Source of the DNA: a virus
Direction: 5' to 3' (one strand)
Virus record (IMG/VR): IMGVR_UViG_3300032229_000222
Location: 1 to 25,417 of that record
Length of the DNA: 25,417 nt
How positions within the stretch are numbered: position 1 is the first letter of the stretch; every line of letters begins with the position of its first letter. The notes under the pieces are model-generated. The model saw nothing but the letters and a program-made list of their open reading frames with translations, searched no databases and was not told the DNA's origin. Of this stretch, positions 1 through 10,173 are shown in pieces. Position numbers and translations under genes: made by a program.

Positions 1-509
1 GCCACCGCGCTCGCTGCCGTGCGCCAGTCCAGCCGGTAGTTCGCTGGCCCGCTGTACCAAGTCCGCGCACTGGACCGCGTCACCACCGGCACCGTGTTCG
101 TCCCGATCCACCCACCGAGGTTGCGATTGGTGGATGCTGCACCGGCCAACGCAAACGACCAGTTGGCCACAAGCGTTGATCCCGCAGTCGCACGCAGCTG
201 GGTCACCCCAGCCTCACTATCCGCAGCGACCAATCCACCCGCTGCAACCGCGATGTTGTTCGTGGTCCTCAGCTCAATGAGCCACGGTATGACGTCCAGA
301 TTCACCACCGTCGCTTGAGGCGCAGTCGCCCCATCCACCGTCACCTGGACGGACTTCAGCTTCCCGAGCCGCGCATCGAACTGCGGGACCCGGTTGGTGA
401 CACTCCAGTCCGTCAGCGTGGGGTTGATCGTCACGGTGTGAACCACCGTCGCGGCCTGCGTTGAGTAGGCCAATCCAATTGCCATCAGTGTTCTCTTCAT
501 GTTGTTCAT
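1..509 (-). CDS. Secreted protein, choice-of-anchor E-like domain (3' truncated by window edge)
   Basis: The reading frame is open from the ATG at 509 to the window edge, giving 169 codons. The start overlaps the upstream stop as ATGA; an in-frame ATG at 500 is an alternative. Residues 4-19 look like a signal peptide (Met-Lys-Arg, then a hydrophobic stretch ending near Thr-Gln-Ala-Ala), so export is likely. The mature N-terminus carries a pattern typical of choice-of-anchor E domains: a Thr/Val-rich strand, then the VPQFDARLGKLKSVQV segment around residues 38-53. Such proteins are known from bacterial surface and exopolysaccharide contexts, often with a C-terminal sorting signal. Any such signal would be outside this window. 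It is the last visible gene of the leftward operon. The domain name rests on motif recognition; the molecular role is unknown. Confidence 0.6.
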   Translation of the reverse strand, partial: MNNMKRTLMAIGLAYSTQAATVVHTVTINPTLTDWSVTNRVPQFDARLGKLKSVQVTVDGATAPQATVVNLDVIPWLIELRTTNNIAVAAGGLVAADSEAGVTQLRATAGSTLVANWSFALAGAASTNRNLGGWIGTNTVPVVTRSSARTWYSGPANYRLDWRTAASAV

Positions 510-883
510 TTGGTTTGTGTTGTTGAAATCTTTTGCGCCATCCGAACCAGCTCTTCCGGGACGCACTTTCCTCCACGAGCATGTTGGTGCGCCTTCTTGT
601 GGTGCAGATACTCGCATTCAGGAAACGCGCACTCCAATGCTGCCTTCATGAGCTGAAGCGCCTCGGCCATATTGCAGTTTTGCGCTTTGAGCGTAGCGCA
701 CTGCCACAGATAGTCGGCGGACTCGTCCTCAAGGTTCCGAATCCGCTCGTTGGCTGCGCTGAGTTCGCGCTCCATGAGCTTCATCTCACCAGCAAGATCG
801 TACATGGTAGCGTGAGGCTTGAAGTACGCCGCATCCGTCCTGGGCGTCTCCACCATTTTGTTGCCGTCACCAATATGGTTCAT
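506..883 (-). CDS. Phage hypothetical protein with coiled coil
   Basis: A 125-residue protein. I chose the ATG at 883 because AAGGAGG sits seven bases upstream and the start overlaps the previous stop as ATGA; an upstream in-frame ATG at 910 is inside the previous gene. Near the N-terminus is the segment ETPRTDAAYF, a pattern often seen at the start of small phage proteins. Residues about 30-55 are a heptad-rich helix (ERELSAANERIRNLEDE). The C-terminal half contains several Cys and His residues (Cys and His near LECAFPECEYLHH), which could bind metal. Function is unknown. It is translationally coupled on both sides within the early-type operon. Confidence 0.75.
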   Translation of the reverse strand: MNHIGDGNKMVETPRTDAAYFKPHATMYDLAGEMKLMERELSAANERIRNLEDESADYLWQCATLKAQNCNMAEALQLMKAALECAFPECEYLHHKKAHQHARGGKCVPEELVRMAQKISTTQTK

Positions 884-1191: not shown

Positions 1192-1212
1192 AGTTTACTC
1201 CTTCAGTAGGCC

Positions 1213-1261
1213 AAAATTAAAATCCCGCCGCCAGTCCGGTCCTTGAATTCGGACCAGCGGC
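1213..1261 (-). terminator. Possible intrinsic terminator after the exonuclease gene
   Basis: Read on the minus strand, GCCGC (1261-1257) and GGTCC (1255-1251) pair with GGACC (1242-1238) and GCGGC (1231-1227) around an eight-base loop, with an asymmetric internal loop. The stem is followed by GGGATTTTAATTTT. It lies 14 bases after the stop of the exonuclease gene, in the 83-base gap 1192-1274. The interrupted stem makes this only a moderate candidate. Confidence 0.4.
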
Positions 1262-1274
1262 AGGAACCTCCCAC

Positions 1275-2357
1275 TCAGGAGGAAAGTTTCACTAATGACG
1301 GCGCGGTCGCCTTTGTTTCGGTGCATCCAGCAAGGATGGATTCTAAGCGCGCATCAAGAGCCTTACCCTTCTCGGTCGTCGCCGCCTTCACCGCGTCCTT
1401 GAGCTTACCCTTGGCGATTGAGACGCAGGACATGAACGCCTCGGAATTTACTCCGAGTGCAGTGGTTCGGTTATAGACGGTCGTCGCATCCGTGATCGTC
1501 TCACGCTCGCTGCCGGGTTTGAGCGCCCACCCAGGCACAACGTCTCCAGATTCAAGTCGGCGCTTCGCCTCAGCCTTGCACGCGTCAATCACGCGAGTCG
1601 CAAACTCGGCGCGTTCCAAAAACTCAGCCAGCGTCTGCGAGGTCAGCGTGGCCGCAATCGCGTCAGCAGTCGTTCCTGCGGGCATAGCTACGACCGGCAG
1701 CGCCACCGAGGCTTCCCTAGCCTCGACGCAATAGGGCTTGGCCTTGCAGTATCTGCAGGCGTCCGCGCTCGGCGACCGCGGCGCATTCGGCGCGTTGATG
1801 CGGTCAACGATCCGGCCAACCTCGGCGCGTGCCACGATCAGGTCTTCAAACGTGTACTCGCAGAGCGTCGGAGCACCTGCCATCGGCTGGACGATTGCGA
1901 CCGTGACCTTGGTTAGTCCGTGATGGATGCCGACCAGCACGGCTAGCGCACGGAGTTGGAGGTTGCCCTCGGCGCTCGTCACCTCGCCACGCCCAGTCTT
2001 GTAGTCGATCACCACTCCGTCACCGCTGAGACTGTCAATGGCCACTACGTCGGGCTTGCCAGACCAGTCGTGATCCATCCAATACCGATGCTCGCGGATA
2101 ATCTCGTCCCGGTGCGGCAGGACGGTGTTCAGGATTGTCTCCTCCTGCTCGCGGCATCGCAGCGCAAGGTCTACCTCGTCCGCGGTCAGCGGCACGGTCA
2201 TTGTCTCACCTGCCAGCCACGCGTGGATCCGGTTGCCAATTGTCGCGTCGTCCGAGGTCTGATCAGGGATGCCCTGCTCGGCCTGCCATGAGCCAGGGCA
2301 GAGCGCGTAACGCTCCATGCTCGACGCCGAAGGCTTGTTGTTGCGCTCGTCACTCAT
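1275..2357 (-). CDS. PD-(D/E)XK exonuclease, Cas4/RecB-like (DUF2800 type)
   Basis: A 360-residue protein of the RecB/Cas4-like nuclease fold, as found beside phage single-strand annealing proteins. Visible motifs in order: Cys20 in ALCPGSW; GNRIHAWL with His45; GKPDVVAID with Asp103 (metal ligand); VIDYKTG with Asp118 and Lys120 (the D-x-K core); LQLRALA as the Gln-containing motif IV; then Cys201, Cys204 and Cys210. Cys20 plus the three late cysteines match the four ligands of a 4Fe-4S cluster in this family. It probably resects double-stranded DNA to feed the RecT-type protein encoded two genes upstream, giving a phage recombination pathway. Its start overlaps the preceding gene by eight bases. 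The last 140 residues are less conserved and Ala-rich. Confidence 0.85.
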   Translation of the reverse strand: MSDERNNKPSASSMERYALCPGSWQAEQGIPDQTSDDATIGNRIHAWLAGETMTVPLTADEVDLALRCREQEETILNTVLPHRDEIIREHRYWMDHDWSGKPDVVAIDSLSGDGVVIDYKTGRGEVTSAEGNLQLRALAVLVGIHHGLTKVTVAIVQPMAGAPTLCEYTFEDLIVARAEVGRIVDRINAPNAPRSPSADACRYCKAKPYCVEAREASVALPVVAMPAGTTADAIAATLTSQTLAEFLERAEFATRVIDACKAEAKRRLESGDVVPGWALKPGSERETITDATTVYNRTTALGVNSEAFMSCVSIAKGKLKDAVKAATTEKGKALDARLESILAGCTETKATAPSLVKLSS

Positions 2358-4342: not shown

Positions 4343-4379
4343 TTGCGCGGACGCAACCACTATGTTTGCATCGGCGCAA
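4343..4379. promoter_or_regulatory. Operator-like palindromes 1 and 2
   Basis: TTGCG-CGGA-CGCAA lies at 4343-4356 and TTGCA-TCGG-CGCAA at 4366-4379. The first is a perfect five-base inverted repeat, the second has one mismatch. Their centres are 23 bases apart, about two helical turns. They sit at the 3' end of the small DNA-binding protein gene and just upstream of the next gene. The same motif occurs twice upstream of the DNA-binding protein, so these are probably its binding sites. Confidence 0.55.
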
Positions 4380-4560
4380 ATTTCTTTTCGGCGCAGATCA
4401 GCGCTTGGTACGTGCTCACACTCGGAGTCTGCCCGCGCTCCAGAATGCGCCAAAGGGTTGTATGGGACACGTCCGCGGCCGCAGCCCAATCTTGGATGCT
4501 CACGTCTTGTTTAGCCAGGCGATCGCGGATTGCGCGGAGTTCGCGCTTGAAATCATGCAT
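4360..4560 (-). CDS. Xre/Cro-like DNA-binding protein, 66 residues
   Basis: The ATG at 4560 gives a compact 66-residue protein. Residues about 21-50 form a helix-turn-helix of the Xre/Cro type: SIQDWAAAADVSHTTLWRIL, with the recognition helix at HTTLWRIL, followed by GQTPSVSTYQAL typical of this fold. N-terminal residues 1-18 are a basic helix. The frame is open for another 172 codons upstream, but those read through the structured RNA region and have no protein-like features. Four near-identical palindromes flank the gene, two upstream (4582-4617) and two at its 3' end (4343-4379), which fits an autoregulating phage repressor or Cro-like switch protein. Confidence 0.75.
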   Translation of the reverse strand: MHDFKRELRAIRDRLAKQDVSIQDWAAAADVSHTTLWRILERGQTPSVSTYQALICAEKKFAPMQT

Positions 4561-4581
4561 GGGCGGACCATGAACACCGGA

Positions 4582-4617
4582 TTGCGTGGGCGCAAGTTTG
4601 GAGTTGCGCGGGTGCAA
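4582..4617. promoter_or_regulatory. Operator-like palindromes 3 and 4
   Basis: TTGCG-TGGG-CGCAA lies at 4582-4595 and TTGCG-CGGG-TGCAA at 4604-4617, with centres 22 bases apart. They lie 22-57 bases upstream of the DNA-binding protein start and end 11 bases before the TTGACA box of the plus-strand RNA promoter candidate. Binding here could control both divergent transcripts. Confidence 0.6.
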
Positions 4618-4628
4618 ACGTTGTGCTG

Positions 4629-4656
4629 TTGACATCCTTTCAACCATTGGCATTGT
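4629..4656 (+). promoter_or_regulatory. Candidate sigma-70-like promoter for the structured RNA
   Basis: A perfect TTGACA at 4629-4634 is followed after 16 bases by CATTGT at 4651-4656, which keeps the A2, T3 and T6 positions of a -10 box. Transcription would begin near 4663, seven bases before the first stem of the RNA. The -10 box is weak, so this is a candidate only. Confidence 0.4.
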
Positions 4657-4662
4657 CCAACC

Positions 4663-5163
4663 CGTCAGAGGGACCGAGGTCCCGCAGGTTTGAAACCCTG
4701 TACTACATCGAAAGTGAGCTTTGCCGCCTGAGTGCCTACGGGCACACCGTACGATGTAACGGGTTTCAATCAGGCGGCGATTTCTTTTCCCCCGACTGGT
4801 CTGAAGCGAAGCGGGATAATCAAGACGCGGCATCTTCAGGCGAGAGCGCAAGCCGGGGCCACCCAAAGCGCAAAGGCTGGTGTCGAGATCGCTAGAGGCC
4901 GGGTGATATGGCGGGTCAATCTCCGTTGAGAGTCTGGCGAAGTGCGGACTGAGCTTCCAGAGCCGCATACCCAAGTGTCCGAGGCTGTTCCCAAAGGAAC
5001 GGAGTGGAAACTGGAGGGTGACGACAGCGCGCTTAGGCGTGGTGTCTTTACCCTTCGGAACCGGGCTGAAACCCAAGGAACAAAGAGGAATCCGGGAACC
5101 TCAAGACCTTAAAGAAACCGGGTAGTCCTGCGGATGATCCCGAAACAGATTTCGGGATGATCC
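4663..5163 (+). ncRNA. Large structured non-coding RNA, about 500 nt, family unknown
   Basis: This fills most of the only gene-free interval (4561-5165). Plus-strand helices by eye: 4670-4674/4679-4683; 4691-4698/4761-4768; 4704-4710/4752-4758; 4711-4714/4719-4722; 4732-4736/4741-4745 closing a UACG tetraloop; pseudoknot 4723-4731/4770-4778; 4931-4936/4945-4950; 4961-4964/4983-4986 with 4967-4970/4975-4978 inside; 4987-4991/4996-5000; 5003-5005/5010-5012 with a GGAA loop (this one competes with the next helix); 5011-5019/5050-5058; 5085-5088/5099-5102; and a long terminal stem at 5132-5163. Several helices need G-U pairs on the plus strand that would be A-C mismatches on the minus strand, which sets the orientation. 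Size and phage context resemble ornate large phage RNAs such as GOLLD or ROOL, but I cannot match either. The ends are uncertain. Confidence 0.6.
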
Positions 5164-5206
5164 CCTCAAGCCCTACGGGAAACCGGACACTCCTGCGGAT
5201 GATCCC
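5099..5206. repeat. 65-nt period tandem duplication
   Basis: Bases 5099-5141 and 5164-5206 align without gaps at an offset of 65, with 35 of 43 positions identical by hand count. The best conserved parts are CCTCAAG, GAAACCGG and the 16-base TCCTGCGGATGATCCC. The first copy is in the structured RNA. The second overlaps the 3' end of the Cys-rich gene. Related GAAnCCGGG motifs also occur near 5057 and 5088. Confidence 0.8.
5132..5163. other. Strong hairpin at the end of the structured RNA region
   Basis: GGAT-G-ATCCCGAAA, loop CAGA, TTTCGGGAT-G-ATCC: a nine-base-pair perfect stem extended by four pairs across a single G-G mismatch. It lies directly after the stop of the Cys-rich gene on the minus strand and at the 3' end of the proposed plus-strand RNA. 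Neither side has a T-run, so it is not a canonical terminator. It could cap the RNA's 3' end or protect the 3' end of the late mRNA. Confidence 0.65.
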
Positions 5207-5387
5207 ACGGTGAAATCCTGTGAGCGCCACGCGGGCAGCCGTTGCGCGGATGGCAGCACCTGGACACCTCCTGCTGGAACCATTCGCACGCTCCGCACAT
5301 CTCGCGGGACGGTCCGATCACTCGACGGGTTGCGGTGACGGTCTCGCCCTTTGGCATTCGGACCCGGCCTGTGATGCGGAAGGTCAT
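5166..5387 (-). CDS. Small Cys-rich protein, possible zinc binding
   Basis: A 73-residue protein whose ATG overlaps the stop of the 1126-residue gene as ATGA, with GGAG just upstream, so it is the last gene of the leftward structural operon. It has Cys31, Cys34, Cys44, Cys45, Cys51 and Cys67 plus several His residues, a pattern that suggests metal binding (CGAC ... CCHPRNGC). The last 14 codons lie inside the second copy of the 65-nt repeat, so the C-terminus may have been extended or replaced by that duplication. No family was recognised. Confidence 0.6.
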   Translation of the reverse strand: MTFRITGRVRMPKGETVTATRRVIGPSREMCGACEWFQQEVSRCCHPRNGCPRGAHRISPWDHPQECPVSRRA

Positions 5388-9364: not shown

Positions 9365-10173
9365 TGGATCAGTCGATAGATGCCTTGCAGAGCGGATCCT
9401 TCAGGCCATGCGTTCCAGCTACCAAAGCGCCATCCAAGGTTTTCAGTGACCTTAAGCGCGCTTCGTTCCCGCTGATAGCTGAAGTCCTGACGCGATAGAT
9501 ACCATCCCCAGACGAAGCCCTCAGGTAGAGTCTCAGCCGGATCAAGCGGGATACGTTCGGAGAGCGGGGAAATGATTCCAAAGTCACGCAGCAACGCTGC
9601 CCGCGTGTAGACCAGACCCTGCGTTACGACCCGGTGGGGCGTTCCGGTATAGGTCAGCGAATACGTGCGGTTGCGGTTGAGCACCGGCATGCCGCGCGGG
9701 TAAGTGTCGATGCCTTGCGAGAGCAGGTTGTAGATGTACCAACCAACCGGGTATTGGGTCTGATCGAGCGGGTAGGCCTCGCCTCCGCGTGCCGCCTCCT
9801 CGATGTCTGATCGGTACTGCGCCTTGCTGACGTAGCCTTGGGCCTCCTCAACGGCGCGGTCCATCGAGAACAGACTGACCTGGTATTCCTCCTGCGATAT
9901 CGACCAAGTGTCAAAGGTGGTCTCAGCCGCTGCCGGTTGCGTTGGGTCACGGACGAATGATGCAACAAGGCGCGAGACCGGACCGCTGTTGTCGACCGTC
10001 GTCCTGGCTCCAGCCGCCTGCATGTCTGCGGCCTGCGTCGCAATGCCTGCGGCGGTTCCCTCGTAGGTGTATTCCCACGTGTTTCCGTTGCCTTGGTCGA
10101 AGACTGGGCGCGTCGAGACCAGCGTCACGCCGGACGCCAGAAACGATGGTGAGCCGTGTGTGTATGCGCTCAT
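9361..10173 (-). CDS. Tail-region structural protein, 270 residues
   Basis: It starts at 10173 with ATGA overlap to the tape measure stop and is directly downstream of it. This is the usual place of a distal tail protein or the first tail-tip protein of siphoviruses. The sequence is beta-rich with many aromatic residues: WEYTYEGTAAG at about residues 32-42, TFDTWSISQEEYQVSLFSMD at about 85-104, YPVGWYIYNLLSQGI in the middle, and a Trp-rich C-terminus (GWRFGSWNAWPEG). No catalytic motif is visible. The assignment rests on gene order. Confidence 0.65.
   Translation of the reverse strand: MSAYTHGSPSFLASGVTLVSTRPVFDQGNGNTWEYTYEGTAAGIATQAADMQAAGARTTVDNSGPVSRLVASFVRDPTQPAAAETTFDTWSISQEEYQVSLFSMDRAVEEAQGYVSKAQYRSDIEEAARGGEAYPLDQTQYPVGWYIYNLLSQGIDTYPRGMPVLNRNRTYSLTYTGTPHRVVTQGLVYTRAALLRDFGIISPLSERIPLDPAETLPEGFVWGWYLSRQDFSYQRERSALKVTENLGWRFGSWNAWPEGSALQGIYRLIQ

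Follow-up and report, generated by a model that had tools for sequence, protein, structure and literature searches.

On our preferred, if tentative, reading, a cassette of about 480 nt (positions 4619-5098) in a phage genome is an accessory, recombining non-coding block that most likely makes a plus-strand structured RNA with its core in the 3' part. The absence of genes, the optional presence of the cassette, its recent exchange and a strand-specific fold excess are directly supported by the analyses. The cassette would lie between the late operon (end 5166) and the repressor/early operon (start 4560), beside putative operators. Its transcription, its RNA product and its role we infer.

The window, that is the whole stretch of DNA analysed, comprises 25,417 nt of the linear virus record IMGVR_UViG_3300032229_000222 (25.4 kb). 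All its recognisable genes are on the minus strand, and they encode a terminase, portal, head protease, major head protein, tape measure, RecT-like annealing protein and PD-(D/E)XK exonuclease. The terminase is closest to that of Verrucomicrobia phage P8625 (24% identity), and the lowest E-value among the exonuclease matches listed belongs to an Akkermansia phage. An alignment search of genome contigs with the terminase found no relative. A six-frame genome search supplied relatives in 34 of 388 Verrucomicrobiota genomes (best E 1e-66, 32% identity), against just three of 199 Planctomycetota genomes (best E 4e-8); thus a Verrucomicrobiota host is likely. The ORF at 3-617 (minus strand) matches the NCBIfam choice-of-anchor E domain above the cut-off (31.0 vs 23.8 bits).

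The interval 4561-5165 is the largest gene-free gap in the window. It is delimited by the start of a gene encoding a 66-aa helix-turn-helix (HTH) protein (4360-4560, minus strand) and the stop of a 73-aa conserved ORF (5166-5387, minus strand). The HTH protein is conserved in four relatives (62-71% identity), and its family matches are below the cut-off (Pfam HTH_31, E 0.003; NCBIfam BcepMu gp16, E 9e-4). The 73-aa ORF is 86-93% identical in the four relatives and ends at the same point in all of them, so the right boundary of the gap is real. The original prediction had seen no credible protein gene between these borders, and this is borne out. All six frames of the gap score below zero in codon-usage log-odds (real genes score +0.18 to +0.36), and Pfam matches in 4561-5165 are limited to the HTH gene at the left edge. 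Nor does any conserved protein frame cross the interval, the observation that had been named as contrary to an RNA: a 223-nt deletion in one relative, not a multiple of three, shifts the frame. We also considered whether the HTH protein might extend N-terminally through the cassette (ORF 4360-5076/5100) and rejected this, as relatives without the cassette match the 66-aa protein from its first methionine; the same frame shift also rules it out.

A degenerate tandem duplication (5099-5141 and 5164-5206, minus strand; read from the sequence) involves about 12 codons at the end of the 73-aa gene, and an inverted repeat, 5132-5163, lies between the copies. The right half of the degenerate copy 5099-5141 is found in all relatives, and this copy blurs the right edge of the cassette.

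Four related IMG/VR contigs spanning the site (L003, L004, L005 and L006) were compared with the window. The cassette is missing from three of them, a presence/absence pattern that the original prediction had overlooked. In L005, some 21 nt take the place of the region from 4619 to about 5117, and L003 and L006 carry about 104 unrelated nucleotides at this site. The fourth contig, L004 (IMGVR_UViG_3300009161_000212), has the cassette, identical at 256 of the 257 aligned positions in 4619-5098. Outside the cassette, the window and L004 are about 84-94% identical; therefore a recent exchange took place that comprised the cassette together with its close surroundings (roughly 4521-5120). Its gain and loss would occur by recombination between related phages. 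The single substitution in the shared positions, A4702G, falls at a predicted unpaired base; with two near-identical copies only, no covariation signal can be obtained.

The L004 copy lacks a 223-nt segment, 4746-4968, nearly half of the cassette. The alignment places the ends of this segment at an imperfect 7-nt repeat, GCACACC/GCATACC. Judging by the sequence, a deletion is favoured over an insertion as the origin of the difference, because two adjacent 9-bp complementarities link the retained and missing parts. The shortened allele retains the strongest hairpins. A further relative, L007, diverges before the cassette site. At about 9400-9700 of this contig a 1126-aa gene is followed by an opposite-strand tyrosine recombinase-like fragment and then by a PAPS-reductase-like gene (read from the sequence), possibly a prophage end or host junction.

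The left edge of the cassette adjoins a pair of 14-bp palindromes of the TTGCG-N4-GCAA type (4582-4595 and 4604-4617, together 4582-4617); the cassette starts beside the second. The HTH gene has a second pair (4343-4356 and 4366-4379) at its opposite end, so that four such palindromes, in two pairs spaced 22-23 bp, flank it. The upstream pair is kept in the relatives, with changes. The palindromes are probably operators of the HTH protein. At the other side, directly after the stop of the 73-aa gene, the backbone hairpin 5132-5163 is kept in the relatives without the cassette. One possibility is that the cassette is a DNA-level or cis-regulatory site, such as an early-operon control element, a replication origin, or a leader or terminator for minus-strand transcripts, with no separate RNA gene. 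Its position next to the operator-like palindromes and the HTH gene, and the conserved hairpin after the late operon, would fit such a function. However, L003, L005 and L006 keep both the operators and the hairpin without the cassette, which is therefore needed for neither. Moreover, the minus strand of the L004 allele has no fold excess (z +0.43). We consider a cis-acting site unlikely.

The fold itself speaks for an RNA product. On the plus strand, 4663-5163 folds at -205.1 kcal/mol with a z-score of -4.4, and none of 100 shuffled sequences folds as well; the minus strand reaches z -2.3. This segment ranks first among 50 non-overlapping 500-nt plus-strand windows of the phage. The fold excess is real but not huge, and the z statistic alone is not decisive, since two coding 500-nt windows reach about -3.9 on the minus strand. 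Most of the excess comes from the 3'-terminal 150 nt or so, 4969-5118, which are retained in L004. This domain has the strongest fold signal (z -3.36 on the plus strand and -0.73 on the minus strand); its extent is an upper limit, as 5099-5118 overlaps the duplicated gene tail. The 5' part, 4663-4968, has z -2.28 and -0.42, respectively, and the segment 4746-4968 alone folds worse than its shuffles (z +1.0). The shortened L004 allele again shows an excess on the plus strand (z -2.87). Thus, both for the whole segment and for its 3' domain, the plus strand folds better than shuffled sequences and better than its complement, as expected for a structured non-coding RNA.

Among individual helices, the one originally proposed at 5011-5019/5050-5058 is part of a 20-bp plus-strand hairpin, 5011-5058, with two 1x1 mismatches, a 4-nt loop and several G-U pairs. 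Local folding energies are -31.5 kcal/mol on the plus strand and -16.6 on the minus strand; for this helix, the argument that G-U wobbles reveal the strand is right. The hairpin is the third best of 5072 sixty-nt windows, and its plus/minus asymmetry is the second largest of 5074 fifty-nt windows. No T-run follows it. A second hairpin of the 3' domain, 4978-5008 with the stem GUUCC/GGAAC, is predicted by the fold. Two other helices fared poorly: 4931-4936/4945-4950 has only -6.4 kcal/mol alone and is outcompeted in the ensemble by 4942-4947/4963-4968, and 4967-4970/4975-4978 does not form (0 kcal/mol). Hence the prediction of a plus-strand structured RNA stands as regards the fold excess, the strand bias and the non-coding character, but not as regards two of the three helices cited for it.

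The 5' module (4690-4778, plus strand) is built around the hairpin 4732-4745, which contains the C(UACG)G tetraloop noted earlier. Overlooked at that time were two adjacent exact 9-bp inverted repeats, 4690-4698/4761-4769 and 4723-4731/4770-4778; equally many occur in 3 of 200 shuffled sequences. Because they are interleaved, both could form together in one molecule as a pseudoknot only, to judge from the pairing pattern. A predicted helix 4660-4667/4909-4916 would close the 5' domain (4660-4916, plus strand) with a mean pair probability of 0.90. Through the deletion, L004 has lost the 3' arm of each inverted repeat as well as the 3' strand of the closing helix, which is thus not conserved.

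Evidence for transcription was sought in 4500-5250. No consensus promoter for a plus-strand transcript was found there; TTGACA occurs at 4629-4634 with only a weak -10 box and is suggestive at best. One terminator-like site was found in the same region, no more than expected by chance. U-tract terminators appear by inspection elsewhere in the phage, one example being the minus-strand site around 1213-1265 that follows the exonuclease gene. Directly after this gene, 1192-1290 (minus strand) contains a strong hairpin resembling an intrinsic terminator, followed by TTTTAATTTT.

These results leave a close rival: passive filler, that is foreign or duplicated DNA in a recombination hotspot between operons, decaying and without product, whose fold arises from inverted repeats or by chance. 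Near relatives carry three different contents at this one site (the cassette, 21 nt, or about 104 nt), the 223-nt deletion occurred soon after the exchange, and the cassette contains internal partial duplications, D1 and D2. The failure to detect a promoter points the same way, and so do the similar z-scores of coding windows. On the other hand, neither the strand-specific fold excess in both alleles nor a 20-bp hairpin stabilised by G-U pairs of the plus strand only is expected of random DNA. We regard passive filler as quite possible, if somewhat less probable than an RNA. For a structured RNA speak the plus-strand fold score and its first rank, the strand asymmetry of both alleles, the lack of coding signal, the clear-cut presence or absence of the cassette in the four related contigs, the recent exchange and the survival of the strongest hairpins in the deletion allele. 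Against it are the lack of a consensus promoter and of an above-chance terminator in a phage whose other genes have U-tract terminators, the recent deletion, the existence of two near-identical copies only, which show no covariation, and the fold scores of coding windows (z -3 to -3.9).

We then consider whether the putative RNA belongs to a known class. The Rfam search that the original prediction had proposed, with GOLLD, ROOL and intron models among the families, was run on the whole window and on 4561-5200 alone. At E<=10 it yielded chance matches only and no family; in particular, the GOLLD and ROOL covariance models have no match. This agrees with the earlier statement that neither RNA was recognised. 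GOLLD resembles the cassette in being a large RNA borne by phages or prophages. However, many of its members exceed 800 nt, are often near tRNA islands and are supported by covariation, whereas the cassette has about 480 nt, no tRNA and no covariation. ARAGORN found no tRNA in the window, and thus the tRNA-island context of GOLLD is absent from this contig, which may be incomplete. ROOL RNA is phage-borne and highly structured, with no known protein partner (PMC12286853). The cassette is phage-borne as well, but it has no Rfam match and no tRNA neighbour in the window, and 223 nt are missing from its second copy.

Several features would suit a new giant RNA that forms a cage or scaffold like GOLLD and ROOL: the phage location, the length of about 480 nt, the many predicted helices and the better preservation of the 3' domain relative to the 5' domain. 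On the other hand, no Rfam family matches, the window has no tRNA genes, nearly half of the molecule is missing from the sole other copy, and there are no homologues to show covariation. This alternative is very improbable, and the earlier suggestion of a large ornate RNA of this kind is not supported: three of four relatives have no cassette, its L004 copy is truncated, and the fold excess resides in some 150 nt.

Group I and group II introns were rejected, as no Rfam intron model matches at E<=10 and the site lies between two intact conserved ORFs, so that no gene is interrupted. A group IIC intron inserted after a terminator hairpin was also rejected: it has no Rfam support, and no intron ends are recognisable by eye. 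No match to the Rfam HEARO family, which would indicate an IscB/IsrB guide RNA, was observed, and no RNA-guided nuclease gene was found among the scanned window proteins, a set that excludes some short ORFs.

Collection of homologues by blastn, also proposed originally, gave no divergent copy, and L004 has the only other copy found. No homologue was found in 373 genomes from the order of an Opitutaceae genome or in 388 phylum-wide Verrucomicrobiota genomes (overlapping sets). The best match, 41 nt at 85% in two copies in one genome, lies inside a gene for a Fic-like protein (read from the sequence) and was judged to be chance. Phage records contain no DNA homologue of the cassette, and plasmid records only chance matches. 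Beyond chance matches, none of five short patterns searched in IMG/VR retrieved anything but the L004 contig; such patterns miss most copies below about 85-90% identity. One 16-mer pattern had chance matches only in 84,980 genomes. A covariance model of 4973-5062 recognised the window and L004 only, plus a reverse-strand self-match of the hairpin, and had no match in 289 genomes. The 15-mer CCAACCCGTCAGAGG from the 5' end of the cassette (4657-4671) recurs in L178 (about 354-368) and L179 (about 377-391), two relatives without the cassette; these sites are homologous to each other and occupy a separate place. The recurrence is probably due to chance (E about 0.05).

To return to the preferred structured RNA, its transcription would diverge from that of the HTH gene and begin immediately to the right of the operators. 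The 3' domain (about 4969-5103), in which the hairpin 5011-5058 dominates, would make up the working core of the RNA together with part of the 5' end. The most plausible role may be that of a trans- or antisense-acting regulator. An antisense role is plausible because the RNA would be complementary to any late-operon read-through; its target would be minus-strand transcripts that continue beyond the late operon into the repressor/early one.

The immunity regions of phages encode antisense RNAs, such as lambda OOP, P22 Sar and the C4-type RNAs of P1 and P4, which are short (about 70-80 nt) and have their own promoter and terminator. The cassette RNA would likewise oppose the main transcription beside a repressor gene, but the cassette has no such Rfam match. 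Phage morons are accessory genes between operons; they usually consist of a protein gene under its own promoter and followed by its own terminator. The cassette is likewise an optional, recently exchanged insert between conserved genes, but no protein gene, promoter or terminator was detected in it. Novelty was part of the original prediction, and indeed no known class matched; a large ornate class is not established. That the cassette represents a new class, absent from Rfam, of horizontally exchanged plus-strand RNAs of Verrucomicrobiota phages, whose transcription would start in the repressor control region and oppose that of the phage genes, is in our opinion decidedly unlikely.

If the cassette is not transcribed, it demonstrates that weakly constrained intergenic DNA can yield both a z-score of about -4 and a fold that looks convincing when drawn by hand. 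If it is transcribed, a phage group that has seen almost no experimental work would possess an accessory RNA with a regulatory or counter-host function, and otherwise similar phages with, with a truncated, and without the cassette would provide a natural comparison.
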